Origin: Candidatus Dadabacteria bacterium
Lineage (GTDB): Bacteria; Desulfobacterota_D; UBA1144; Nemesobacterales; Nemesobacteraceae
Direction: 5' to 3'
Length of the DNA stretch: 44,090 bases
Assembly: GCA_026706695.1 (NCBI GenBank)
Contig: JAPOYE010000085.1
Span: 1 to 44,090 of the forward strand
This document shows, piece by piece, positions 12,189 to 26,417 of this stretch. The stretch's first letter is position 1; the number at the start of each line of letters is the position of its first letter. The notes below the pieces were generated by a model that saw only the letters and a list, made by a program, of their open reading frames with translations, was not told the DNA's origin and did no database searches. Made by a program: the position numbers and the translations under genes.

Positions 12189-15100
12189 ATGACGAAGTCA
12201 AACAACTCTTGCGATTCTTCCGGGGAATCACAGCCCCACTCTGAAACTCAGAAACAGGAAAAATCTGGATTCGGTCCACCGATAGCAATCGTGGGCATGG
12301 GGTGCCGGTTCCCCGGCGCACCGAGCATACCGGCCTTTTGGCGCCTGCTCGAAGCCGGCCAGAATACAGTGATGGAGGGCGTCCCGGGTTCCGGCATCGG
12401 ACGTATGGACGAGCTTTTCCCCGATGGACAGATTCCGAGCAAGGCCTGTCGTTTCTGTGCCTATGTCGACGGAATCGAGGAGTTCGACGCGGGGTTCTTT
12501 CGCATTTCTCCGGTCGAGGCCCAGTTGCTGGATCCACAGCAGCGGATGATGCTGGAAACCACTTGGGAGGCTCTCGAGGATGCGGGCATGGACCCGGATC
12601 GGCTGAGGGGCACCCGCACCGGGGTATACACCGGGATCAGCAACGACGAATACAGGATGCTGGTAGTGGAGTCAAGGAAACCTGCCGATGCCGCCTCATG
12701 TCTTTATGCTCTGAGCGGCACGAACCTGAACGGTACCAGCGGACGGGTCTCTTTCGTGCTGGGCCTCATGGGACCGGCAAAGGCAGTGGACGCCGCGTGC
12801 GCGTCGTCCATGGTGTCGGTCCACGACGCGGTGGCGGACCTGCAGCAGGGCAAGGCGGATCTGGCCATTGCGGGCGGTGTGCAGGCTATCCTGAACAGTC
12901 GTATATTCGAACTCCGTGCGGATGCGATGATGCTGTCTCCGGACGGGCAGTGCAAGACGTTCGATGCATCTGCGAACGGTTACGTGCGCGGCGAAGGTTG
13001 CGGCGTCGTTATCCTGAAGCGCCTCAGCGAGGCCGAGGAGGACGGCGATCGGATCTGGGGGGTGATCCGAGGCTCGGCGGTGAATAACGGCGGGGCCAGC
13101 ACCGGACTGACCGTACCGCACATCCCCGCACTGGAACAGGTGATGGAAGCGGCCCTGTCCGACGCCGGAGTTCCTGCTTCGGATGTGGATTACCTGGAGG
13201 CACACGGGACTGGAACAGCTGTAGGCGACCCGATTGAGATCGACGCCGTCTCCGCCGTCTACGGCAAAGGACGCAAAGCCGATCGTCCTCTTTTGATCGG
13301 TTCCGTAAAGACCAATATCGGCCACCTCGAGTCGGCTGCCGGAATCGCCGGTCTGATCAAGGCGGTGCTGGTGATGCAGCGCGGAGTGATTCCGAAGCAT
13401 CTGCACTTCCAGGCCCCCAACCCTAGTCTCGATTGGGACCGACTGCCTTTGAAAATTACTTCGTCCATGATGGACTTGCCCGAGCGTGGCGGACGGCCGC
13501 GACTGGCGGGAGTAAACTCCTTCGGGATATCCGGAACAAACGCCCACATAGTGGTGGAAGAATACATCGCCCCAGGGGGATTGCCCTACGGAAAGAATGA
13601 GCTTGCGGGCTCAGCCCAGGCGGTGACAGTCTCTCTGCCGGAGACCGTGGAGAGTTTGCCGTTGCCGGAGCAAGAATTAAAGAGGCGCGAGACCCGTTTG
13701 CTGCCGCTGTCCGGAAAATCGGTGAACGCGCTCCGGGAACTTGCGGAGCGTTACCTCTCATGGCTGGATGAGCATCCAGAGGATCTTGCTTCCCAAAACG
13801 CCTCGGTAGAACCCTTGCTCTCGGACATGGCGTGGACTGCAGGCGTAGGAAGGAGCCATTTTGATCACCGTGCGGGCGTGGTGTTTCGGGATACCGGGTC
13901 GCTGCGGGAGGGGCTGAAAGCGCTGGGGGATGTGAGCGAGAGTCCGGGGCCGCAAACACCGACGAAGATAGCGTTCGCTTATACCGGGCAAGGAAGCCAA
14001 TGGACCGGCATGGGAAAGGCGCTCTACGAACGTGAGCCGGTGGCGCGGGCGGTTCTTGACCGCTGTGAAGAGGTGTTTAGGGACGAAAGGGGCGCCTCGC
14101 TGCTTGACGTGATGTTCGGGGGCGGCGAGGGCGATCTGGGCGATACGGCGTGGGAACAGCCAGCCCTCTATGCCCTCGAGTGCGCGCTCACGGCGCTCTG
14201 GTCGAGCGTAGGAGTTCGTCCCAGCATAGTGTTGGGGCACAGCGTCGGGGAACTGGCGGCGGCGCAGGCAGCAGGAGTGTTCAGCCTGGAGGATGGAATG
14301 CGGTTTGCCGCGGCACGGGGCACCCTGCTGTCGGAAACCGAACCGGGCACAATGGCAGCGGTTTTTGCCACTCCGGCACGAGTGGCGTCGACGGTCGAAG
14401 AGCTGAACGAATCATCTGACAGTGTTGGGCTGAGCATCTCGGCGGACAACGGCACCCACCAAGTGGTGAGCGGCCCGATTGCAGAAATTGAAGCCATCTC
14501 GAAGCGTTTCGAATCGGAAGGAGTCCGGGTAAGACGATTGAACACGGCCCGCGCGTTCCACAGCGCCTTGGTGGAGCCAGCTCTGGACATGCTGGAAGCT
14601 TCCTTGGATAATGTGGCGGTCGAGCCACCCTCCCTCACCGTGGTCAGCAACCTGACTGGCCAAGTGGTGGAGCCTGGCCAGGCGCTGGACGGAGCCTACT
14701 GGAGGCAGCATGCCCGCGAGAAAGTGGCATTCGCCCGCGGTGTCCGGACGTTGGCGGAACTCGGGGTGGACTTGGTGTTGGAAATAGGGCCGAGACCGAT
14801 CCTGGCCACGATGACTCGCTCGGCCTGGCCGGACTCGGTACAGACACCGGCGCCCATGGTGCTGTCGAGTCTGCGCCCACCGTCTGGTGAATCCTCAGCG
14901 TCCGCGGATGGCGCCGATTTCACGCAGGCCGTCACGGAAGCGTATCAGGCGGGGCTCCCGATTCGTTTTGAAGGGCTCTTTGCGGGAGAGGCGCGCCATC
15001 GCATCTCGCTGCCAAGCTATCCATTCCAACGCGAACGCCATTGGCTCGATTCGAAGAGAAAACAGCGCTCGGGCGTCGGCCACCCCTTACTGGGGGTCCG

Positions 15101-18100
15101 GCACGAATCCGCCACAGGCGAGGTCACATTCGAGACAGAAGTATTCCAGTCGGATCCGGAGTGGCTGAGCGACCACCGGGTGTTTGGCCGGGTTATAGCT
15201 CCGGGCGCGCTCTACGGAGCCATGGCGGCATCGGTATCCCTTACGGAAGAAAGCGGCGCGGTGGTTGTGGAGGACATGCAACTGCTCAACGCGCTGGTTT
15301 TCCCGAAGGAGGATTCCGAGGACGGTACCGGTGACGAGGGCCGGAAGGTGCAGGTTGTGCTTGATTCTTCCGAGCGGCCGAATTCGCGTCGTGTCCAGAT
15401 ATTCAGCAAGGGAAGTGGAGAGGACTGGACGGCACATGTGGAAGGCCACATATCGCAGGGCGCCCCCATGCCGGAAGCCGGTAGCCGCATTGATCTTGAA
15501 AGCCTCAAGACCCCCCTGTCACCAATAGACGTGGCAGACTACTACCGCGCCCGGGCGGGTACGGGGATCAATCTCGGCCCGTTTTTCCGTACGCTCGGGA
15601 AGGTCTGGTCCCGGCCAGGCGAGGCGTTAGGCGAAATTTCTTTCCCTGAAGCTCTCGGCCGCAATGAGCTGGACGTTCATCCGCTCCTGCTCGACGGTTG
15701 CTTTCAGGTTGTGGCCGCAGCGCGCAATCCAGGCGGGATAGAAGAGGAAACCACCTATCTGCCATTTGGCTGGGAGCGACTGTGGCTGGCGGACCGGCTG
15801 CCGGATCGCCTGTTCTGTCACGTGCGCATGAGTGAGGTTTCCCAAGGTACGGAAACGGAACAGGACGAGCCGCCTGAGGTCTGGAACGGAGAATTGCGCA
15901 TCTACGATCCCAACGGGGTTCTGCTTGGCGGGCTGAGCGGATACATGGTGAAACGCGCGACGCGGGCGGCGCTGCTCTCCGCGGGCGAAGGGGTGAATGA
16001 ACTGCTGTATGAGGTTGTGTGGCGCGAAAGGACTCTCCCGCCCGGAATGCTGTCCGCAGATTTTCTCGCATCTCAGGCAACGGTTGCAGCGCGCTCGGGG
16101 CTGCTCTCAGATTATTTGGCCGACGAAGGAGTCACGCCCAAAGACAGAAGCGCCCTCCTGACCGACCTGGAGCGGTGGTCTCGGTCCTGCGCGCTCGAGA
16201 CCTTGGAGAAGCTGGGGTGGGAACGCGAGGTGGGCGTGACCGTGGATTCAGAGGAATTGCGGCAGCGCTTAAATGTCGTGGAGGAGCATAAGAAGTTGTT
16301 CCGCCGGACGCTCGAGATGCTGGCCAAGTCCGGGGTGTTGGAGGAGGTGGACGGCGACTTCGTCGTGAGGATCGGACCCGGGGATCCCTTGCCGGATGAA
16401 ATGCCGCCTGACACCGAGGAATTCGCTACCCGAATGGCTGAGCTATATCCCCACGGCTTGACCGAGATCGGACTTTTTCGACGGTCTGGCAACGCCCTGG
16501 CAGACATCCTGCTGGGCCGAGCGGACCCGTTGACGGTCCTGTTCAGCAGCGGAGACCCGACCCCGGGCGATCTGTATCTAAAAGCCCCGGTGGCGCGTGC
16601 GGCGAACCGTCTACTGCGAGAAACGGTTCAGACTCTTGTGGAGGGGTTGCCCGACGGCCGACACCTCAGGGTGATCGAGGTCGGGGCGGGTACAGGATCG
16701 GCAACCGCGGCCATCCTGCCGGAACTCCCGGAAGGACGGTTCGACTACATGTACACGGATATCTCGGCGGGCTTCTTTGCGGAAGCAGAGGCGCGTTTCG
16801 GAGGCGAGGAAGCGTCGATAGATTACCGCATGCTGGATATCGAGAAAGATCCGGTGGAGCAGGGATTTGACTCCCACGGTTATGACCTGGTGATTGCGTC
16901 CAATGTGTTGCACGCCACGCGATACCTGGATGAGACGCTTGCGCACTGCCGGCGGCTTCTCGCGCCATCAGGACAGATGGTCGCGCTCGAGAACCTGAGG
17001 GGTATGGGTTGGATGGACCTGACTTTCGGGCCGTTGGACGGCTGGTGGCGGTTCGCCGATGCCTACCGACCGCAACACGCCTTGGTGGAGCCAGCTGTGT
17101 GGCGCCGCGTACTTGCTGACGTGGGTTTCGAGGAAATAGAAGTGCTGGGGCTAGAAGAGTCCGACTCGACCGGGATGCCGGATAAGGGTGTGATCGTGGC
17201 GCGGGGTCCGGCTGAGGTGACCGAAAAACCGGGCGTCTGGGTTCTGGCGGCGGATAGCGCCGGCGTGGCCGAGGAACTGGCAACGGAGTTGGCCGCGCGC
17301 AACCAGACAGTCGTGCTGGCGGACCATCAACTCCCGGAGAACGGGCATTCAGAAGCGGACGGATCCGGCATTGTCCGGTCAACGGTGGACATGGAGCGGC
17401 GCGAGTCGTGGCAATCGCTGTTGGAGTGCCTGCCCGGGGATGCGCCTCTTAGCGGCGTCGTGCACCTCGTGGCGCTGGGCGGCCACGGCCTGAATGCGAC
17501 AACCGAAGAGATGGCGAAGGACACGAGGCAAGCGATGGCGAGCGCACTGGCGTTGACGCAGGGGCTGCTTGACTCCGATGTGGTGCCCGAAAACGGAGTG
17601 TGGTTTCTTACGCGGGGCGCCCAGGTGCTGGAGAGGGAGCTTGGCGGGGAACTTGCCGGCGCGACGTTATGGGGTTTCGGGAAGGCGCTGGCCCGCGAAG
17701 CGGCGCATCTAAAACCGAGGATGATTGACCTGGACCCCACAAAAACGCAGTCGCCTGAACTACTGGACGAACTGCTGTATCCCGATCAGGAGAATCACAT
17801 CGCACATCGCTACGGACGACGTATGGTGGCCCGCCTGGTCCGGGCCGGGACCGACACGGAGCGGTTGACGTTGCCGGAGCAGCCGGGCTGGGTGCTGGCT
17901 CCGGATCCGGAAGGCATATTCGATAAGCCTTACGTCAAGCCGCTGCCGGAGCATTCCCTGGAGCCGAAAGAAGTCCGCGTCGCGGTCGAAGCTGCCGGGC
18001 TGAACTTCTGGGATGTATTTCGTTCGCTTGGCTTCATTGAAGAGGAGAACTTAGGCAAGGAGATGTGTGGCCACGTGCTCGATGTGGGTTCCGAGGTGTC

Positions 18101-21100
18101 AACCGTCTCGGTCGGCGACCATGTGGTTGGATTGGGGTTCGGTGGTGCGTTTGCAGACGAAATGGTTATACGGGAGGAGTTGGTGGCGCCCGCGCCATCG
18201 GGAATCTCGGTGACGGATCTCGCCACGGTGCCGAATGTGTTTGCCTCAGCCGCATTCTCGTACGAACTCTCAGGGCTAAACGCCGGCGAACGGGTGCTGA
18301 TTCACGCGGGTGCTGGCGGTGTGGGACTCGCGGCCATCCAGTTGGCGCGTGCCGCAGGCGCCGAGGTGTATGCCACGGCGAGCGAGCTGAAGCGGCCATA
18401 TCTTCGCTCCATCGGCGTGGAGCATGTGTTTGACAGCCGCACGACAAAGTTCGGGGAAGAGATCCTCGAGGCCACGGACGGAGCAGGAGTCGACGTGGTC
18501 CTGAACAGCCTGACGGGAGAGGGATTCATCGAGTCGAGTCTGTCATGCCTGGCACAGGGTGGCCGGTTTGTGGAATTGTCCAGGCGGGACATTCTGAGCG
18601 AGGAGGAGATGGCCGAAGTTCGTCCCGATGTTGCCTACTCCATTCTAGAGCTGGATGTTTTGAAGAAGACTGACCCGGCTTGCGTCGGAAAGGTTCTCCG
18701 GGAAGTGATGGAGCGCCTTAAGGCGGGAGAACTGAAACCGCTTATCCACAGCAGGTGGCCCCTGGCCGAAACGGGGGCCGCATTGAGATTCATGCGATCG
18801 GCCCGGCATATCGGGAAGATCGTCGTGACGACACCACCGCTTGTGAGAGGTGGGTTGCGGCAGGATCGCACCTACCTAGTGACCGGCGGCTTGGGCGGTA
18901 TCGGGTGCGCCGTGGCCAGCTGGCTGGCGGATCACGGCGCAGGGGCAATCGTGCTCAATGGACGACGGTCACCGGACCCCGAGGTTGAAAAAGAGATTGA
19001 CTCGTTGCGTGAACGCGGGTCCACGGTGAGGGTGGAGCTGGCGGATGTGACGGATGCCGCTGCTGTGGACGACATGCTGGCGCGGATGGACCGGGAACTG
19101 CCGCCGCTCGGCGGAGTGATTCACAGCGTGGGAGTGTTGTCGGATGCTTCACTGTCGAACCAGAGTTGGGAGAGATTCGAGCAGGTGCTATGGCCGAAGG
19201 TGCTGGGCGCCTGGCACCTGCACCGTGCGACGGCGGACCGCGATCTGGAACTCTTCACCCTCTTTTCGAGCCGAGTTGGCGTCATGGGCAATCCGGGACA
19301 GGCGAACCACGCCGCAGCCAATGCGTTTTTGGACCAGCTCGCCGCCCACCGGCGGGCGGTAGGGCTTCCGGGACAGGCCATTGCCTGGGGAGCGTGGTCA
19401 GAGATCGGCGAAGCGGCGGAACAACGAGATCGGATTGAACGGCAACGAGCGGCGCTCGGCGGCCGCTGGTTTACACCCCAGCAAGGTCTCAGGGCGTTCG
19501 ACAGGCTGGTGCGCCAGGACGTAACGAATTCCGTGGTGATGTCTATGGACTGGGCAGTTTTTGAGGAGGCTGTCGAAGACCGTCCCTCCCTGCTAGAGGA
19601 CCTGCTGTCCACCAGTTCCAAGGCCGACGCCGACTCGCCTGCTCAGGCGGACGACCTGATGTCCAGAGTGCGGAAAACGACTGTGGCGGAACGCGAAGGC
19701 ATGCTGGTGTCATTCCTCCAAGGGGAAGTGCAGGCAGTTCTGCGGCTGCCGTCGACGCCGACGCCAACAGTGGGGTTCTTCGATCTGGGGATGGACTCAT
19801 TGATGGCAGTAGAACTGAGAAACCGGCTCAACCGAGCATTCGCGGGCGAGTATGTCGTCTCCAACACAGCTGTCTTCGACTACCCCGACATCACGACCTT
19901 AGCCCACTATCTGGCGGGTGAACTCGGTCAACTGGGCGGAGACAGTGGAACGGCTCCAACGCCCGAGACAGCCGCACCCCCACCGCGCCCGTCCGTCGCT
20001 ACTGAGGATGACGACATAGCGATAGTCGGCATGGCGTGCCGCTTCCCGGGCGCGAAAAACCTTTTGGAATACTGGAATCTTCTGGAATCGGGCACTGACG
20101 CAGTGACCGACGGACGTCAGGCCGGCGATTCGCCGAGGGACACCTTTGGAGACTCAAATTCCGAGAGCGCCACCCACCTGCACGGCGCGTTTGTTGAGGG
20201 TATCGAGTGGTTTGACTCACGCTTCTTCCGCATTGCGCCGATAGAAGCGCGGATGATGGACCCACGACAGAGAATGATGTTGGAGACAAGTTGGGAGGCT
20301 ATCGAAGACGCCGGAATCGCTCCCGACAGCCTACGAGGCAGCCGCACTGGAGTGTATGCCGGAGTCAGCCACAGCGAATACCAACATGTGATTGAAGCCA
20401 GCGGTAAGGCTGGCACTTTCCTCGGCCTAATGGCCAGCGTCACCGCCGGGCGGGTCGCGTCCGCACTGGGTCTTGAGGGTCCGGCAATGGCCATCGATAT
20501 GGCCTGCGCCTCGGCATTGGTTGCGGTGCATCAAGCCGTCGTTGGGCTACAGCGGGGCGAGGTGGACCTAGCCCTCGCCGGAGGCGTGCATGCGGCGCTG
20601 TCGCGCGACATTTCCAAACTTATGCTGGATGTGGGGATGCTGTCGCCGAGTGGGCAGTGCCACCCCTTTGATGCGTCTGCGGACGGCTATGTACGCGGCG
20701 AAGGCTGCGGAATGCTCATTTTGAAACGACTGAATGAGGCAGAGGTTGACGGCGACCGGATATGGGGCGTCATCAAGGGTTCTGCCATTAACCAGAACGG
20801 GGCAAGCGCGGGATTGACCGTTCCGAACGGCCCGGCACAGGAGCGTGTTATAGAGGAGACGCTTGTTAAGGCGGGCCTCACCGGAAGGGATGTTGACTAT
20901 CTCGAAGCACACGCGACAGCCTCCCAGTTGGGCGACGCAATTGAAGTACACGCGGCAGGCTCGGTGTACGGCAGAGGGCGCGACGCCGACCGCCCGCTAC
21001 TGATGGGCACCGTAAAGTCAAACATCGGATATCTGGAGACGGCGGCGGGCGTTGCCGGCCTGATAAAGGCTGTGCTGGCGATGAAGCAGGGTATCATTCC

Positions 21101-22559
21101 GAAACATCTGCACTTCAAGGAACCGAACCCACAAATCGACTGGGACCGGCTGCCCGTGCGGGTGACTTCTGAAAAGACCGACTGGCCACCCCATCCTGAC
21201 AGGCCGCCACGCGCGGCAGTAAGCGCGTTCGGCATATCGGGCACAAACGCGCATATGGTGGTGGAAGGCTACGGAATCGCGACAGAGAATGGCAGCGGAA
21301 GTGCTGGAGTCCAGTCGCTTAGGGGCGCCGCGCGGCAGGTGCCCGTTTCTCTGCCAGAGCCGGTTGCGAATCTGCCGCTAGCTGCGGGAGAACTAACGGA
21401 GCGCACAGTGCGTTTCCTGCCGCTATCTGGCAAGTCGGACGGCGCCCTGCGGGACATGGCAGGACAGTACCTGTCGTGGTTCGACAACCATATTGCTGAG
21501 TCGTCACCCCAAGCACCTGCACTTGCTGACATAGCGTGGACGGCGAGTGTCGGACGCAGCCATTTTGACCATCGTGCCGCTTTAGTGTTCGGGGATATGC
21601 AGTCTCTGCGTGCAGGGCTAACGAAACTCGCGGAGACCGACGCTACGCCTGATAAGCCAGATCCACAACCCGTAACAAGGGTGGCATTCGTGTACACAGG
21701 CGAGGGAAGCCAGTGGGTTGGTATGGGCGAGGCGCTGTACAACAGCGAGCCAGTCGTACGCGCTGTTTTGGACCACTGTGACGCCGTGGTGCGCGCAGAG
21801 AGAGGAGCATCGCTGCTCGATGTGATGTTCGGGCGCACCGAAGCAGCGGGCGATTTGAATGATGCCGATTGGGCGCAGCCAGCTCTCTACACATTGGAGT
21901 GCGCGCTGACGGCGCTGTGGGCAAGCGTTGGGATCCGCCCGAACGTCGCTCTGGGGCACGGCACGGGTGAGATTGCCGCGGCGCAGGCTGCGGGAGTCTT
22001 CACCTTAGAGGACGGACTGCGCTTTGCCTTGACTCGTGGCACGCTGATGGCGGCGCTGCCGGGAGTGGATCCGAACCAATCTCTGAACGGTCTGGAAGTG
22101 GCATTTGCAGAGAGTGAGATCTCACCTCCATCCCTGACTCTGGTGAGCGGCGTTACGGGGCAAGTTGTGGATGCGGACAGCCCGCTAGACGGGGCGTACT
22201 GGCGTATGCAGGCGTGCGAGACTGCGGCGTTCAGCGCAGGTGTCTCCACGCTTGCCGAGTTGGGAGTGGATGCAGTGGTAGAGATTGGCCCCGGCGCGGT
22301 ACTGGGGCCGCAGGTGAATCTCGAATGGCCGGACTTGTCAAACGTAAAGGAAGCCCCCACTTCACCACTCGTGCTTGCAAGCCTGATGCGACCATCCGAC
22401 GGGGATTCACAGGAGCGCAGTACCGGTTTTGCGGAGGCGGTTGCAGGGGCATACGATGCGGGACTGGCACTTTCCTTTGAGGGCATGTTCGCCGGGGAAT
22501 CGCGCCGCCGCATCTCGCTGCCGAGCTATCCGTTCCAGCGCAGGCGTCACTGGGTGTAA
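12189..22559 (+). CDS. Type I polyketide synthase: KS-AT-DH-cMT-ER-KR-ACP plus inactive KS-AT
   Basis: A 3456-residue megasynthase. KS1 (about 29-455) has the full Cys-His-His set: C204 in DAACASS, H339 in EAHGTGT and H379 in KTNIGHLE. AT1 (about 593-880) has GHSVGE with S685 and RAFHS with H791; Phe in that motif suggests malonyl-CoA. DH (about 965-1270) has H996 in HRVFGRVIAP and D1169/Q1173 in LDGCFQ. The C-methyltransferase (about 1440-1700) has VIEVGAGTGSATAAI. ER (about 1905-2215) has HAGAGGVGLAAIQLA. KR (about 2225-2405) has TGGLGGIG, but the usual catalytic Tyr is H2374 (GQANHAAAN). ACP1 (about 2495-2570) carries S2537 in GMDSL. A second, degenerate KS-AT ends the protein with no ACP or thioesterase. 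The first module could build a fully reduced, alpha-methylated chain, perhaps iteratively; the product is unknown. Codon use (CGN Arg, ATC/ATT Ile) differs from core neighbours, suggesting transfer. Start: ATG after GGGAGGAAG. Confidence 0.93.
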   Translation: MTKSNNSCDSSGESQPHSETQKQEKSGFGPPIAIVGMGCRFPGAPSIPAFWRLLEAGQNTVMEGVPGSGIGRMDELFPDGQIPSKACRFCAYVDGIEEFDAGFFRISPVEAQLLDPQQRMMLETTWEALEDAGMDPDRLRGTRTGVYTGISNDEYRMLVVESRKPADAASCLYALSGTNLNGTSGRVSFVLGLMGPAKAVDAACASSMVSVHDAVADLQQGKADLAIAGGVQAILNSRIFELRADAMMLSPDGQCKTFDASANGYVRGEGCGVVILKRLSEAEEDGDRIWGVIRGSAVNNGGASTGLTVPHIPALEQVMEAALSDAGVPASDVDYLEAHGTGTAVGDPIEIDAVSAVYGKGRKADRPLLIGSVKTNIGHLESAAGIAGLIKAVLVMQRGVIPKHLHFQAPNPSLDWDRLPLKITSSMMDLPERGGRPRLAGVNSFGISGTNAHIVVEEYIAPGGLPYGKNELAGSAQAVTVSLPETVESLPLPEQELKRRETRLLPLSGKSVNALRELAERYLSWLDEHPEDLASQNASVEPLLSDMAWTAGVGRSHFDHRAGVVFRDTGSLREGLKALGDVSESPGPQTPTKIAFAYTGQGSQWTGMGKALYEREPVARAVLDRCEEVFRDERGASLLDVMFGGGEGDLGDTAWEQPALYALECALTALWSSVGVRPSIVLGHSVGELAAAQAAGVFSLEDGMRFAAARGTLLSETEPGTMAAVFATPARVASTVEELNESSDSVGLSISADNGTHQVVSGPIAEIEAISKRFESEGVRVRRLNTARAFHSALVEPALDMLEASLDNVAVEPPSLTVVSNLTGQVVEPGQALDGAYWRQHAREKVAFARGVRTLAELGVDLVLEIGPRPILATMTRSAWPDSVQTPAPMVLSSLRPPSGESSASADGADFTQAVTEAYQAGLPIRFEGLFAGEARHRISLPSYPFQRERHWLDSKRKQRSGVGHPLLGVRHESATGEVTFETEVFQSDPEWLSDHRVFGRVIAPGALYGAMAASVSLTEESGAVVVEDMQLLNALVFPKEDSEDGTGDEGRKVQVVLDSSERPNSRRVQIFSKGSGEDWTAHVEGHISQGAPMPEAGSRIDLESLKTPLSPIDVADYYRARAGTGINLGPFFRTLGKVWSRPGEALGEISFPEALGRNELDVHPLLLDGCFQVVAAARNPGGIEEETTYLPFGWERLWLADRLPDRLFCHVRMSEVSQGTETEQDEPPEVWNGELRIYDPNGVLLGGLSGYMVKRATRAALLSAGEGVNELLYEVVWRERTLPPGMLSADFLASQATVAARSGLLSDYLADEGVTPKDRSALLTDLERWSRSCALETLEKLGWEREVGVTVDSEELRQRLNVVEEHKKLFRRTLEMLAKSGVLEEVDGDFVVRIGPGDPLPDEMPPDTEEFATRMAELYPHGLTEIGLFRRSGNALADILLGRADPLTVLFSSGDPTPGDLYLKAPVARAANRLLRETVQTLVEGLPDGRHLRVIEVGAGTGSATAAILPELPEGRFDYMYTDISAGFFAEAEARFGGEEASIDYRMLDIEKDPVEQGFDSHGYDLVIASNVLHATRYLDETLAHCRRLLAPSGQMVALENLRGMGWMDLTFGPLDGWWRFADAYRPQHALVEPAVWRRVLADVGFEEIEVLGLEESDSTGMPDKGVIVARGPAEVTEKPGVWVLAADSAGVAEELATELAARNQTVVLADHQLPENGHSEADGSGIVRSTVDMERRESWQSLLECLPGDAPLSGVVHLVALGGHGLNATTEEMAKDTRQAMASALALTQGLLDSDVVPENGVWFLTRGAQVLERELGGELAGATLWGFGKALAREAAHLKPRMIDLDPTKTQSPELLDELLYPDQENHIAHRYGRRMVARLVRAGTDTERLTLPEQPGWVLAPDPEGIFDKPYVKPLPEHSLEPKEVRVAVEAAGLNFWDVFRSLGFIEEENLGKEMCGHVLDVGSEVSTVSVGDHVVGLGFGGAFADEMVIREELVAPAPSGISVTDLATVPNVFASAAFSYELSGLNAGERVLIHAGAGGVGLAAIQLARAAGAEVYATASELKRPYLRSIGVEHVFDSRTTKFGEEILEATDGAGVDVVLNSLTGEGFIESSLSCLAQGGRFVELSRRDILSEEEMAEVRPDVAYSILELDVLKKTDPACVGKVLREVMERLKAGELKPLIHSRWPLAETGAALRFMRSARHIGKIVVTTPPLVRGGLRQDRTYLVTGGLGGIGCAVASWLADHGAGAIVLNGRRSPDPEVEKEIDSLRERGSTVRVELADVTDAAAVDDMLARMDRELPPLGGVIHSVGVLSDASLSNQSWERFEQVLWPKVLGAWHLHRATADRDLELFTLFSSRVGVMGNPGQANHAAANAFLDQLAAHRRAVGLPGQAIAWGAWSEIGEAAEQRDRIERQRAALGGRWFTPQQGLRAFDRLVRQDVTNSVVMSMDWAVFEEAVEDRPSLLEDLLSTSSKADADSPAQADDLMSRVRKTTVAEREGMLVSFLQGEVQAVLRLPSTPTPTVGFFDLGMDSLMAVELRNRLNRAFAGEYVVSNTAVFDYPDITTLAHYLAGELGQLGGDSGTAPTPETAAPPPRPSVATEDDDIAIVGMACRFPGAKNLLEYWNLLESGTDAVTDGRQAGDSPRDTFGDSNSESATHLHGAFVEGIEWFDSRFFRIAPIEARMMDPRQRMMLETSWEAIEDAGIAPDSLRGSRTGVYAGVSHSEYQHVIEASGKAGTFLGLMASVTAGRVASALGLEGPAMAIDMACASALVAVHQAVVGLQRGEVDLALAGGVHAALSRDISKLMLDVGMLSPSGQCHPFDASADGYVRGEGCGMLILKRLNEAEVDGDRIWGVIKGSAINQNGASAGLTVPNGPAQERVIEETLVKAGLTGRDVDYLEAHATASQLGDAIEVHAAGSVYGRGRDADRPLLMGTVKSNIGYLETAAGVAGLIKAVLAMKQGIIPKHLHFKEPNPQIDWDRLPVRVTSEKTDWPPHPDRPPRAAVSAFGISGTNAHMVVEGYGIATENGSGSAGVQSLRGAARQVPVSLPEPVANLPLAAGELTERTVRFLPLSGKSDGALRDMAGQYLSWFDNHIAESSPQAPALADIAWTASVGRSHFDHRAALVFGDMQSLRAGLTKLAETDATPDKPDPQPVTRVAFVYTGEGSQWVGMGEALYNSEPVVRAVLDHCDAVVRAERGASLLDVMFGRTEAAGDLNDADWAQPALYTLECALTALWASVGIRPNVALGHGTGEIAAAQAAGVFTLEDGLRFALTRGTLMAALPGVDPNQSLNGLEVAFAESEISPPSLTLVSGVTGQVVDADSPLDGAYWRMQACETAAFSAGVSTLAELGVDAVVEIGPGAVLGPQVNLEWPDLSNVKEAPTSPLVLASLMRPSDGDSQERSTGFAEAVAGAYDAGLALSFEGMFAGESRRRISLPSYPFQRRRHWV
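20007..22556 (+). other. Degenerate C-terminal KS-AT didomain within the PKS
   Basis: Residues about 2607-3456 of the PKS duplicate the N-terminal KS-AT, including the same linkers (VSLPEPVANLPL against VSLPETVESLPL). KS2 keeps Cys (C2773, MACASA) and the first His (H2908), though HGTGT has become HATAS. The second His is Tyr (Y2948, KSNIGYLE). AT2 has GEGSQ for GQGSQ and GHGTGE with G3258 where the Ser nucleophile belongs. It lacks about 73 residues after RGTL, including the AFH motif with the catalytic His. Condensation and acyl transfer should both be lost. The frame is nonetheless intact through the post-AT linker LPSYPFQRRRHWV. Confidence 0.88.
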
Positions 22560-22599
22560 CTGAGGTGCCGTGTCACGGAGAAAACTAGAGAAAAATCGA

Positions 22600-22628
22600 T
22601 TGACCCAAGCGCCTATGTACTGTACCAT
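22600..22628 (+). promoter_or_regulatory. Promoter of discrete ACP gene
   Basis: TTGACC (22600-22605) and TACCAT (22623-22628) are separated by exactly 17 bp in the AT-richer gap after the PKS stop. AAGGAGG at 22655-22661 is a near-ideal Shine-Dalgarno for the ACP ATG at 22671. Together they suggest the ACP is made at higher level than the PKS. Confidence 0.55.
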
Positions 22629-22670
22629 TGTGTTCTAACATCTTAAATTTTTAAAAGGAGGACTGTAATT

Positions 22671-22916
22671 ATGGCTTCAGTTGAAGAGCGACTAAGACAA
22701 CTTGCGGACGAAAACCTGGAGGTAGACGGACAGCCGGTAGGCAAATTGCTGGACCCGGACAAGGGACTTGCTGATGTAGGTGTTTCCTCTATGGACGCAG
22801 TGTCATTCGCCAAAGTGCTCGAATCGGAGTTCAACGTCTCTCTCCTTCCCGGAAAGGCCGGGGAGATCAAGACTATTGGAGAGTTGATAGCGTACTTGGA
22901 GGCTAACGCTTCTTAA
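22671..22916 (+). CDS. Discrete acyl carrier protein
   Basis: An 81-residue acidic four-helix ACP. The phosphopantetheine site is S40 in DVGVSSMDAVSFAKVLE; the residue before it is Ser where Asp is usual (DSL/DSM), so this is a mild variant. It should be activated by the PPTase encoded 32 bp downstream. Its own promoter and a strong ribosome site indicate independent, high expression. In PKS clusters such ACPs act as loading, acceptor or off-loading carriers. Here the dead KS-AT directly upstream suggests that the PKS tail may dock or pass acyl chains to it (inference). It lacks a domain partner of its own and is not placed among fatty-acid genes. Confidence 0.9.
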   Translation: MASVEERLRQLADENLEVDGQPVGKLLDPDKGLADVGVSSMDAVSFAKVLESEFNVSLLPGKAGEIKTIGELIAYLEANAS

Positions 22917-22948
22917 CACCTCTCTGCTGTAGAGGTAACCGGCATCTG

Positions 22949-23722
22949 ATGTCCGTTTCTGCTGCAAGACGCTGGTGGAGTTCCTTCCGTAAAACTGGTC
23001 CCGTTACCGTCATGTATGTAGACCTGACTCCTAACGCCAGCCGTGAGGCATCATCTTTACTATGGCTGAATGAGGAAGAACAGATGCGCTGTCGCCAATA
23101 TCCGCTCCCAGGTCCTCGTCGCAGGTTTGCTCTGTGTCGTGCCGCGCTTCGGGCTATCCTCTGTCGCCAGCTCGGTTGCGACAATGAGCGCCTCAGTTTC
23201 GGTTCATCTGATCATGGAAAGCCGTTCGCACTAGTAGACGAGGAACCGGCAGCCATCAGCTTTAACCTCAGCCACAGCGGAAAGCACGGCTTGATAGCTT
23301 TTGTTCCCCATGGACGTCTGGGCGTGGATGTGGAGGAGCGCGTCCCCCGAAGGGATTTTGACGAACTGAGCGAAGCCGTGTTCGGTCCTCACGAACAGTC
23401 CGCCCTTGCATGCGTACATGGCCGCGACAGGGTTCAGCTATTCTTCAGACTCTGGACCATCAAGGAAGCCCTGATCAAGGCTCTTGGCCTAGGTTTTACC
23501 CTTGATGTGTCTCAGTTTGAAGTGCCACAAGCCTTGCATCGGGGAAAAATGAGCATGTTCCGCTTCCCACAGCTGCCGGAAATACACTGGCGCGTCGAAT
23601 ACATCGGCAACGAGGATTTCTCAGCAGCCATCGCGCACGAACTTGTCCCGTCCCAATTGGGCGAGCGGTCATTACAGCGGCTGAGCGGTGACGTGTCAGA
23701 AAAACGAGGAATTTGCCAGTGA
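22949..23722 (+). CDS. Sfp-type 4'-phosphopantetheinyl transferase
   Basis: Transfers phosphopantetheine from CoA to the Ser of carrier proteins. The 257-residue pseudo-dimeric Sfp-type enzyme has a GKPF motif, FNLSHSGKHGLIAFV, the Mg2+-binding GVDVEERV and the signature FFRLWTIKEALIKALGLGF. The broad-specificity Sfp type fits a role on PKS ACP1 and the discrete ACP. The ATG at 22949 was taken as start; an ATG at 23012 would remove an uncharacterised N-terminus and remains possible. The stop overlaps the GTG of the hydrolase gene by 4 bases. Confidence 0.93.
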   Translation: MSVSAARRWWSSFRKTGPVTVMYVDLTPNASREASSLLWLNEEEQMRCRQYPLPGPRRRFALCRAALRAILCRQLGCDNERLSFGSSDHGKPFALVDEEPAAISFNLSHSGKHGLIAFVPHGRLGVDVEERVPRRDFDELSEAVFGPHEQSALACVHGRDRVQLFFRLWTIKEALIKALGLGFTLDVSQFEVPQALHRGKMSMFRFPQLPEIHWRVEYIGNEDFSAAIAHELVPSQLGERSLQRLSGDVSEKRGICQ

Positions 23723-24624
23723 CTTCAGAAATCGTATGGGAGGTACCTGAACCGCTTTCCACTCACGATGTCCGCATGGACGACGAAACCGTCATTACGC
23801 TGCGGCAACATGGAAACCCGTCGGGACCGCGACTCGTTCTGAGCCACGGCAACGGTCTCGCAACCGACCTTTATTATCCGTTCTGGTCACTCTTGGTCGA
23901 CGATTTCGACCTTATAATCTACGATCTCAGAAACCATGGCTGGAACCCGGTAAGCGATCTTGAAAACCATAGTCTTCCAACATTGGCTCAGGACAACGAC
24001 ACCATTCTTGAGGCTGTTGACCTTCACTATGGAGCAAAGCCCAGAATAGGTGTGTTCCACTCAGTTGCGGCTCTGGCGACTCTGCTATCACCCAAAAAGG
24101 GCGGCGACTTTGCAGCCCGGGTTCTGTTCGACCCGCCTGTCTGCAAACCTGGCCGGAGCTTTAAGGATTATGAAGATATCGCAAAACGTATGGCCAAAAC
24201 GATCCGTCAAAGCACAAGTCAGTTTAAAACCACGCAGGAACTTGTGGACATTCTTCCTTACATTCCAGCCTGGCAGCACGTGGTGCCAGGGGTATTCGAC
24301 CTTTACGCAAGAACAACCCTGCGTGAGTGTGCGAATGGAGAGGGGTATGAACCTCGCTGCCCTCCTGAGTACCAGGCGCAATTAATAGAGTACGCCAGCG
24401 CCTTCGCCGTACTCGTGGACTTTCAGTCGCTACTCTGCCCGACAAAGGTCATCGGGGCTGACCCGACCTTGCCATACTCATACCTGCCGACGCTCGACCT
24501 GAGCGATATGTCTACCGTGGATTACGACTTTCTGCCTGACACTACGCACCTTCTTCTTTTGGAAAAGCCGCAGGAATGCGTCAGGTCCATGCTTGAGTTC
24601 ATCGAGCCGATTATCACTACGTAA
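23719..24624 (+). CDS. Alpha/beta hydrolase, probable acyl-release or tailoring enzyme
   Basis: A protein of about 301 residues with the alpha/beta-hydrolase core: oxyanion loop VLSHGNGLATDLYYPFW, strand LIIYDLRNHGWNP, nucleophile region RIGVFHSVAALATL (Ser about 115), and a late His in TTHLLLLEKPQE. The elbow is G-x-F-H-S-V-A-A, lacking the last Gly of GxSxG. The start is taken as GTG at 23719, which overlaps the PPTase stop (GTGA); a TTG six bases earlier is also open. Since the PKS has no thioesterase, this enzyme may hydrolyse the finished chain from ACP; other substrates are possible. Convergent with the permease gene. Confidence 0.78.
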   Translation: MTSEIVWEVPEPLSTHDVRMDDETVITLRQHGNPSGPRLVLSHGNGLATDLYYPFWSLLVDDFDLIIYDLRNHGWNPVSDLENHSLPTLAQDNDTILEAVDLHYGAKPRIGVFHSVAALATLLSPKKGGDFAARVLFDPPVCKPGRSFKDYEDIAKRMAKTIRQSTSQFKTTQELVDILPYIPAWQHVVPGVFDLYARTTLRECANGEGYEPRCPPEYQAQLIEYASAFAVLVDFQSLLCPTKVIGADPTLPYSYLPTLDLSDMSTVDYDFLPDTTHLLLLEKPQECVRSMLEFIEPIITT

Positions 24625-24668: not shown

Positions 24669-26417
24669 TTACGCTTCGACCCGCACCGTAACGATATCCA
24701 TCCCCTGATATTTCCGGTGGCGCACCGATGAGGCATAATGACGCAACAGGCGGAACGATATTTCCCTCTCATCCACGCTTTCGTCCTCCTCGTTAAGATA
24801 CGCGAGACGGTCCTCCAGGTTCTCCTCGTCCTCAAGCGTCGAGATGAATTCCATCTCCACCGCCCTACCGTCGGGACGCACGGCTATGATCAGGCGCGAC
24901 GTTTTGTCCGTCCCGCTATCCTCGGGATATTCACTGTCTGGCTGCAGCAGGCTCGAGAGCGTCTCCTCGCCCGCCGAACGCAGCCGCTGGGTCGCCGCCT
25001 CGCTCCAGTCCATATCGGCGGCAACTTCCCGCATGAAGGCATCAATTTGCGGCAGGTCGGAAAAGTCCAGTCGGACCTCCAGCTTCCTGGAACGCGGACT
25101 GGTCACATTCAGGAAGATGTTGAGCGCAATCGCCGTTGCCGCGCCCACCGTGATGCCGTTGCCAAGCAGCGTGCCCCACGGGTGCGCCAGCAAGTTCTCA
25201 AGAATGTTTTGCTGCTCGAACCCGACACCAAGCGCGAACGACACGCCTACAACAACGGTCTTTTGAAAATCCAGTCCGTCGCGCACAATAGTCTGCACTC
25301 CCTCGACAAAAAATATTCCCACGGCAAGTAAGAGAAATGCCCCCATCACCGGATTGGGTATGGTGAGCAGCGCGCCCGTGAACTTTGGCAGCAATGCCAG
25401 TACCAGAAGCATGATCGCTATAACGTATCCCACATTGCGGGCGGCGACTCCCGTCATGTTCACGACCGACGCCGTGAATGACGAATATGGCGACGCAGGA
25501 GGCGTTCCGGCAAGACCCGATAGCAAAACACCCAGCCCATTTGAGTAGAGCGAGCCTTGGAGCAGCCGAAAATCGGTCGTCCTCGGTCTGCGCCGCGACA
25601 CCCGTTGAATTACCACATTGTCTCCAATGCCTTTGATCGCCTGCACCAGAGTGACAATCAGGAACATCGGCAGCAACGCCCAGAATCCGGCAGCCAATGT
25701 AAGATCCAACCCTTGGAAACCGACTTGGGGAATGCCGACCCACGGCGCCGCGTACAGCGGCTCCAGGTCATACACTCCCAGCAGGGCCGCAGCAATGCAT
25801 CCGGATGCGAATCCGATCAGTATGGACCACGGACGCCAGCGCCGCGGGGCGCGCAGTATCAGCGCCGTGGATACCACCAGCGTTACCGCAGCTACGAACA
25901 GCCCAGCGAATGCCGGCGCACCCTCCGGGACTTCCCCGAATCGATCCAAACAGATGGGCAGCACCATCACGGCTATCAGCATAAGCACTGTGCCTGACAC
26001 GGTCGGCGTTATCACGCGCCGCAGTTGGGGAAGCCTTGTCGCTATAGCAAAGAAAAAAAGCGCAGACACTACCATCAGGCTGGCCAGCATCGCCGGTCCT
26101 CCCTCATGCAGGGCAAATACCGACAGCGGGATGTAGTTGGGCGTCACTCCCATGACGACCAGATGCCCCGCACCAAATCGGCTTATCTTGGAGGCTTGCA
26201 GCGCGGTGACTATCCCTACGATTATCAGCGCCGAGAATACGGACCAGGTCAGATATGCTTCGTTCTGGCCGGTCGCTAGAACATTGATAACCACTATCGA
26301 AACTGCGAGCGGCAGCACAAGCACGATGCCCTGTATGGCGACGATGAAAGAGGAGAGCGGCGTGCATTTTTCGTCCGGCTCGTAGCGGATGTGGTCGTTT
26401 ACAGGGGTTGAAGCCAA
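24669..26417 (-). CDS. NCS2-type (xanthine/uracil) permease with C-terminal GHKL-like domain
   Basis: A 582-residue protein. Residues about 20-440 form an NCS2 nucleobase permease with about 12-14 membrane helices and family segments such as ISRFGAGHLVVMGVTPNYIP, LVQAIKGIGDNVVIQRVSRR and GLAGTPPASPYSSFTASVV. The transported compound cannot be fixed from sequence. Residues about 449-582 are soluble, acidic, and resemble RsbW-type GHKL ATPase domains in layout (MREVAADMDWSEAATQRL then RSAGEETLSSLL, a central strand pair, and a final FRLLRHYASSVRHRKYQGMD). The usual N-box Asn appears replaced by Ser. It starts with TTG at 26417 behind GGGAGG. It is antisense-facing to the PKS operon and shares its CGN-rich codon use. 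Confidence 0.85.
   Translation of the reverse strand: MASTPVNDHIRYEPDEKCTPLSSFIVAIQGIVLVLPLAVSIVVINVLATGQNEAYLTWSVFSALIIVGIVTALQASKISRFGAGHLVVMGVTPNYIPLSVFALHEGGPAMLASLMVVSALFFFAIATRLPQLRRVITPTVSGTVLMLIAVMVLPICLDRFGEVPEGAPAFAGLFVAAVTLVVSTALILRAPRRWRPWSILIGFASGCIAAALLGVYDLEPLYAAPWVGIPQVGFQGLDLTLAAGFWALLPMFLIVTLVQAIKGIGDNVVIQRVSRRRPRTTDFRLLQGSLYSNGLGVLLSGLAGTPPASPYSSFTASVVNMTGVAARNVGYVIAIMLLVLALLPKFTGALLTIPNPVMGAFLLLAVGIFFVEGVQTIVRDGLDFQKTVVVGVSFALGVGFEQQNILENLLAHPWGTLLGNGITVGAATAIALNIFLNVTSPRSRKLEVRLDFSDLPQIDAFMREVAADMDWSEAATQRLRSAGEETLSSLLQPDSEYPEDSGTDKTSRLIIAVRPDGRAVEMEFISTLEDEENLEDRLAYLNEEDESVDEREISFRLLRHYASSVRHRKYQGMDIVTVRVEA

Follow-up and report, generated by a model that had tools for sequence, protein, structure and literature searches.

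A free acyl carrier protein as the possible dedicated carrier of a split terminal module in Sup-type polyketide synthases

Here, we analysed a stretch of 44,090 nucleotides (the window), drawn from a genome of 1.87 Mb, and propose, with about even confidence, that the discrete acyl carrier protein (ACP) encoded behind its type I polyketide synthase (PKS) is a dedicated, separately transcribed carrier of the split terminal module of a Sup-type PKS, which would receive the chain from the terminal ketosynthase (KS2) and yield it to a hydrolase. Sequence and comparison among relatives show the promoter-like site, the separate class of the ACP, the loss of AT2, low dN/dS, and that KS2, ACP and hydrolase have been inherited together. 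The features concerned are as follows.

12189-22559, + strand: SupA-type type I PKS of 3456 aa, KS1-AT1-DH-MT-ER-KR-ACPi-KS2-AT2 (Pfam; same domain order in relatives)
20004-21278, + strand: KS2, PKS aa 2606-3030; DMACASA Cys present, HATAS in place of HGTGT, NIGY in place of NIGH
21669-22400, + strand: AT2, PKS aa 3161-3404; Ser replaced by Gly (GHGTGE), about 80 aa including the HAFH motif absent; AT fold in the modelled part
22568-22578, + strand: short inverted repeat between the PKS and ACP genes, CCGTGTCACGG
22600-22628, + strand: promoter-like site TTGACC-17-TACCAT upstream of acp-ppt-hydrolase
22655-22661, + strand: Shine-Dalgarno sequence AAGGAGG
22671-22916, + strand: discrete ACP of 81 aa; GVSSMD holds the attachment Ser
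22949-23722, + strand: 4'-phosphopantetheinyl transferase (PPTase) of the Sfp/HetI kind, scoring under the NCBIfam HetI cut-off
23713-24624, + strand: alpha/beta-hydrolase, probable release enzyme; GxFHSx(S/A) motif in most relatives
24669-26417, - strand: permease of the Xan_ur_permease family

The ACP frame and its coordinates, both hexamers, their 17-bp spacing and the AAGGAGG agree with the preliminary description, as does the PKS upstream, which stops at 22559; the ACP start codon (ATG, 22671) lies 111 nt downstream of that stop, the acp-ppt gap is 32 nt, and ppt and hydrolase overlap by 10 nt. A scan with the ACP yielded 36 loci (L numbers below; genomes carry G numbers), the record titles of which span about nine phyla and name Dadabacteria, Binatota/Binatia, Chloroflexota, Latescibacterota, Gemmatimonadota, Acidimicrobiia, Bryobacterales, Opitutales and Gammaproteobacteria. 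Three records titled Candidatus Dadabacteria have ACPs with 88, 86 and 84% identity to that of the window, and the ACP of L003, titled Binatota, matches it at 100%. The order PKS tail-ACP-PPTase-hydrolase recurs in 23 of the 36 loci, with several of the remainder ending at contig edges, and a permease lies nearby in most relatives. Rearranged loci include L036, where ACP and PKS are on opposite strands, L023, where the ACP precedes hydrolase and PKS, and L110-L112 and L114, where the hydrolase is upstream of the PKS. The PKS match is spread over at least two frames in L012, L019, L026, L032 and L034, possibly owing to frameshifts, stops or assembly errors. In L062 (genome G008), an otherwise near-identical cluster has the methyltransferase fused, at about 9362, directly into the middle of the permease, of which only the first 196 residues are retained in this genome, and everything from ER through hydrolase is gone; the fusion is either a deletion or a misassembly. 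With that whole stretch missing, this PKS without KS2 is uninformative about the ACP alone, and we dropped it as a natural test.

The discrete ACP is classed here as neither the AcpP of fatty-acid synthesis nor a PKS-internal ACP. The AcpP model TIGR00517 gave the window ACP 32.7 bits, well short of its cut-off of 70.45, and in a 57-row tree three groups formed: discrete ACPs (23 rows; support 77/75, unstarred), AcpP (19 rows; 75/77) and internal ACPs (15 rows, taken from 33; 100/99), with 6 other ACPs of the larger tree left out. In the larger, 81-row tree, the discrete ACPs fell short of a single group by two changes and AcpP by four, with no discrete ACP falling inside the AcpP set; the internal ACPs of SupA separated from the discrete ones in both trees, at 100/100 (81 rows) and 100/99 (57 rows). 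On the score below the cut-off and the tree group of its own, the reading of the window ACP as AcpP was rejected; grouping with fatty-acid AcpP, named beforehand as an outcome that would speak against a special role, was looked for in the trees and not seen.

The attachment site itself sets this class apart. The pantetheine Ser lies in VSSMD rather than DSL/DSM, as had been pointed out for the window, and the preceding residue is S or P in all 23 discrete ACPs, as opposed to D in 19/19 AcpP and 33/33 internal ACPs; S also precedes the Ser in all five clusters found through the hydrolase (L109, L132-L135). Throughout the 23, the residue at Ser+5 is A or S and that at Ser+2 is acidic. At AcpP positions 35 and 41, where acidic residues serve the partners of AcpP, every one of the 23 lacks an acid, which argues for an ACP with a partner of its own; retention of the acid at position 38 in 23/23, and of Glu at 49, argues the other way. 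Asp35 of AcpP contacts AcpS, and its loss would fit a dedicated PPTase. The loop motif ENLEVDGQ was set aside as an invariant feature because it had been among the ACP search patterns, making its invariance partly an artefact; in the hydrolase-found clusters the loop reads ENLEIDGS (L109), ENLEVDGK (L135) or ENLEVDGQ (L132-L134).

These observations bear on the idea that the free ACP feeds its chain into type II fatty-acid synthesis or into the acylation of phospholipids, leaving the methyl branches in mid-chain. The solved structures nearest to the discrete ACP, both by sequence (E 5e-9) and by predicted fold, are indeed ACPs of the FAS type, the acid at AcpP position 38 is retained throughout, and fatty acids branched in mid-chain are the proposed products of Sup enzymes (PMC4245539). 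Against this stand the replacement of both partner positions in the whole set and the failure of the discrete ACPs to group with AcpP, and we regard such a hand-over as improbable.

The PKS ends in a module that has lost one of its enzymes. The AT2 His segment is absent from all 34 copies and the AT2 Ser from 33 of them, compared with 30/30 copies of AT1, the control, that have both; the window AT2 has neither the GHSxG Ser nor the downstream active-site His, and AT2 is thus predicted to be catalytically dead. In L003, an AT2 97% identical to that of the window has the catalytic Ser (GHSTGE) and lacks the His segment. The verdict of a dead KS-AT tail in the preliminary description accordingly stands for AT2, and for KS2, which keeps the catalytic triad in most relatives, it would have to be restricted to the window lineage. 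The KS2 Cys is present in 34/34 (one further copy stops short of it), the first His in 35/35 and the second in 33/35, a count that includes L012, labelled KS1 by the script, and excludes L021_1, the fragment tail of a second PKS. The family-wide notion of a dead KS was rejected on these counts. The two exceptions are the near-identical copies of the window and L003: the window KS2 has the Cys and first His and, with NIGY instead of NIGH, lacks the full Cys-His-His triad. NIGY occurs in four genomes (G000, G006, G011 and G012) and in the record of L003; among close relatives, the second-His position holds Tyr in L040-L042 and His in L043 and L044. The HGTGT motif is altered in nearly all KS2.

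Both domains appear to be constrained. By the Nei-Gojobori method and with no significance test, omega is 0.035-0.32 for KS2; for AT2 it is 0.13-0.25 in eight comparisons with dS of at least 0.2, two of which are repeats of one sequence, and 0.48-0.58 in the two closest pairs, where dS is 0.03-0.05 and changes are few. Two tandem PKS tails in L021 (1-1291 and 1451-10240) have the AT excised and the KS, the KS-AT linker and the post-AT linker kept, each followed by an ACP. The AF2 model of the window KS2-AT2 has a mean pLDDT of 54 and a KS part that is unusable, and only residues ~450-830 were read; this part resembles AT domains from KS-AT didomains, with 4mz0 giving the best fit (Z 34.4, rmsd 2.4, 343 aligned). 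By sequence, the nearest solved chains are 7zma, titled 'putative polyketide synthase' and matched in its KS part, and 4mz0, which is the KS-AT of CurL.

Evolutionary distances tie this tail to the free ACP. KS2 and ACP distances correlate at rho 0.72 (n=26) and those of hydrolase and ACP at 0.64 (n=23), in an analysis from which 11 of 39 rows had been removed as near-copies; KS2, ACP and hydrolase intercorrelate at 0.64-0.73, and the module-1 domains correlate mostly with each other. The internal ACP is intermediate (0.54 with the free ACP, n=26; 0.61 with KS2). Correlations of the ACP with KR (0.23, p 0.014, n=26) and AT1 (0.28, p 0.002) are weak, if above chance, and those with the PPTase (0.22, p 0.056) and AT2 (0.28) are no better than those with module-1 domains. 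The bootstrap difference between KS2-ACP and KR-ACP is 0.68 (0.33-0.97, n=21), and, given the hydrolase, the partial correlations are 0.51 and -0.11, respectively. In this sample, ACP distances track KS2 and the hydrolase rather than module 1. Because the three are mostly neighbours, linkage alone could produce joint inheritance, although it is only a partial alternative, given that the PPTase and AT2, also nearby, correlate so weakly with the ACP. Among 60 related genomes, that of the window included, the six that have the tail at full length are also the six with strong ACP matches (E 3.7e-22 or better, 'strong' being our choice); the two search cuts were passed by 10 and 11 of the 60, and the surplus matches are other KS or ACP genes (that of G008 is KS1) or weak (E 1.2e-7 or worse).

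Module 1 has a different history. Around PKS residue 2593, amino acid identity between the window and L005 goes up, from 49-76% before it to 83-88% after it, and identity to L010 and L034 drops; dS between the window and L005/L006 is 1.2-2.3 for AT1, DH, ER and KR and 0.22-0.37 for KS2, AT2, ACP, PPTase and hydrolase; the jump and the split in dS together indicate that module 1 was exchanged. In the window and in L004, module 1 is closer to copies from Chloroflexota and Gemmatimonadota than to those of L005-L008, which the tail and acp-ppt-hydrolase follow. The recombination junction, at PKS aa ~2593 (window ~19965), is seen in comparisons with L005, L006, L010 and L034.

The tail could be regarded as decaying baggage, with the ACP serving some other step, such as the supply of a starter to KS1. 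The near-universal loss of the AT2 residues, the excision of AT in L021 and the loss of the KS2 His in the window lineage all agree with this, but decay is hard to square with an AT2 omega of 0.13-0.25 wherever dS reaches 0.2, or with the retention of KS2 and its correlation with the ACP across phyla, so that we give the idea little credence.

The evidence for separate transcription is comparative. In the window, TTGACC (22600-22605) and TACCAT (22623-22628) make up the site, the latter matching the -10 consensus at 4 of 6 positions, and a promoter scan of 21500-24000 found 2 sites, as against 0.9 +/- 1.0 in shuffled sequence, so that a match in a single sequence proves nothing. The same rule finds a site within 200 nt upstream of 6 of the 26 window genes and none within that distance of the PKS gene. 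Across relatives, sites occur in 19 of 35 PKS-ACP spacers, the shuffle mean being 2.5 (max 7, 200 rounds). Since the 35 contain repeats (L005 = L044, L006 = L043), a second count omitted copies more than 85% alike and gave 11/23 (shuffle mean 1.57, max 5). As controls, the coding DNA just upstream gave 0/35 and the reverse complements 6/35 (1/23 after removal of near-copies). The scan omitted seven of the 36 loci, for which no upstream frame was found within the limit (L019, L023, L027, L032, L034, L036 and L037); all of these except L037 were inspected separately. Among further ACP genes, counted without shuffle controls, 9 of 11 have the site, L019 and L023 being the exceptions, and the nine include L109 and L132-L135, which were recovered without the ACP as bait. 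Conversely, of the 13 Chloroflexota loci, L020 alone satisfies the rule, indicating that the site is not universal or that promoters of other types operate there, and it also fails in L007, L008, L021, L030 and L035.

The alternative, namely, that a single long PKS transcript supplies the ACP and the promoter-like site goes unused, draws on the lack of any terminator-like site in 21500-24000, the near-chance match in a lone sequence, the 12 Chloroflexota loci in which the rule fails, and the reverse-complement count, which exceeds the shuffle mean. It does not explain the excess of spacer sites across phyla, nor why the site is present where some distance separates the ACP and the last frame or AT2 match of the PKS (L027, about 0.65 kb; L032, about 1.8 kb; L135, about 2 kb) or is antiparallel to the PKS (L036), and we consider it very unlikely. 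A separate transcription start for the ACP is well supported by these comparisons; of the 'own strong promoter' once ascribed to it, 'own' holds in this sense and 'strong' is generous for such a -10 hexamer. The suggested need for excess free ACP does not follow, as the site heads acp-ppt-hydrolase and may serve all three genes. The AAGGAGG, a 7-nt match, is the longest Shine-Dalgarno match seen, common to 3 of the 26 window genes, the starts of which were called mechanically. Just 3' of the PKS stop, an inverted repeat reads CCGTGTCACGG in the window, TCGTGTCACGA in L042 and CTCCGTCACGGAG in L005/L044, with changes in both arms such that the symmetry is kept; other spacers carry it as well, but it was not found in those of L004, L006, L008 and L043. 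It is a possible operator.

The genome contains two ACPS-family matches with E up to 1: one is the PPTase of the cluster, and the other, a frame of 141 aa on a different contig, is probably AcpS. A PPTase beside the ACP was not found in L023, L026-L029, L031, L032 and L036, and remnants lie between ACP and hydrolase in L008 (10268-10363, 32 aa matched) and L033 (10461-10631, 57 aa); such absences and remnants count against a dedicated link between PPTase and ACP. Homologues of the cluster hydrolase, 41-53% identical to that of the window, occur in 12 further stretches from 11 cluster-bearing genomes (L097-L108), with no PKS match inside any of these stretches; one such homologue, in G066, has an ACP-family match next to it.

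In the mechanism that we propose, module 1 would assemble a reduced, C-methylated acyl chain on the internal ACP, and the chain would move to the KS2 Cys and then to the free ACP, activated by the PPTase of the cluster, from which the alpha/beta-hydrolase would release it; AT2, devoid of catalytic residues, would persist in a scaffolding role. If AT1 or FabD malonylated the free ACP in trans, the KS2 of most relatives could add a final unit as well; in the window lineage, where NIGY replaces NIGH, transfer alone is the more likely course. The preliminary description cast the ACP as the acceptor for chain hand-off, and this idea fits the evolutionary link of the ACP with the tail (KS2-ACP 0.72 versus KR-ACP 0.23); the transfer itself, its direction and chemistry, the use of the promoter, the specificity of the PPTase and the released product are what we infer. 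More tentatively, the tail can be read as a KS-based off-loading relay: a cis-AT module turning AT-less, the non- or weakly condensing KS of which loads a dedicated free ACP of its own class, with relay, ACP and hydrolase forming one evolutionary cassette and the chain-building module exchanged between lineages.

Alternatively, KS2 might truly extend the chain, with malonylation of the free ACP in trans by AT1 or FabD, and the hydrolase would then free a beta-keto acid or, after decarboxylation, a methyl ketone. The retained triad favours extension in most relatives, and the second His makes extension, not hand-off alone, possible outside the window lineage; moreover, the AT-less KS2 and ACP of L021 resemble a trans-AT arrangement, and FabD-, FabG- and FabF-like frames, read by eye, adjoin AcpP in the genome. 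However, very few KS2 have HGTGT unaltered, no ketoreductase lies downstream, and NIGY coexists with a KS2 omega that is still low, which favours transfer in the window lineage. We hold this reading to be doubtful.

Sup-type PKS genes predominate in PKS surveys of sponges (PMC4245539), and the available parts of the Sup accounts cited here name neither a proven product nor a release step. Sup-type clusters are thought to make branched fatty acids, and our comparison suggests that the free ACP would collect the finished chain at the half-dismantled last unit. An ACP, a PPTase and a hydrolase tied to a terminal KS make up a small set of soluble proteins for testing the release step. The exchange of module 1 on a constant tail, in turn, marks a natural PKS junction, apparently a working one, near PKS residue 2590.

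Among known systems, the AcpP of type II FAS is similar to the discrete ACP in size, fold and nearest PDB sequences; unlike the discrete ACP, it has Asp before the Ser, and the discrete ACP also lacks an acid at +5 and forms a separate group. Modules of trans-AT PKS and non-elongating KS0 domains contain a KS without a working AT that passes the chain on, as the window tail is read here to do. KS0 domains typically lack the HGTGT His, whereas the first His is present in 35/35 KS2, which thus do not qualify as KS0 on this count. Sup PKS are small type I PKS with one reducing module that includes a C-methyltransferase, KS-AT-DH-MT-ER-KR-ACP, and the same module is found in the window PKS and its relatives. 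The cluster is very probably of this sponge type, an assignment made from architecture and context rather than from comparison with the SupA sequence. Sup stands for 'sponge symbiont ubiquitous'. Sup clusters are distributed independently of bacterial taxonomy (PMC9426513); the loci compared here bear titles from about nine phyla. SupE is called a permease in another account (PMC3908369), and the permease at 24669-26417 is a candidate counterpart by name and place. By contrast, the Swf clusters (swfA-C) of sponge symbionts, as presented in that same account (PMC3908369), encode a monomodular PKS/FAS with the organization KS-AT-DH-ER-KR-ACP, which, unlike the window PKS, has no MT or second KS-AT, and they differ from the window in carrying reductase-sulphotransferase genes and radical SAM genes, the latter in two of the three clusters.
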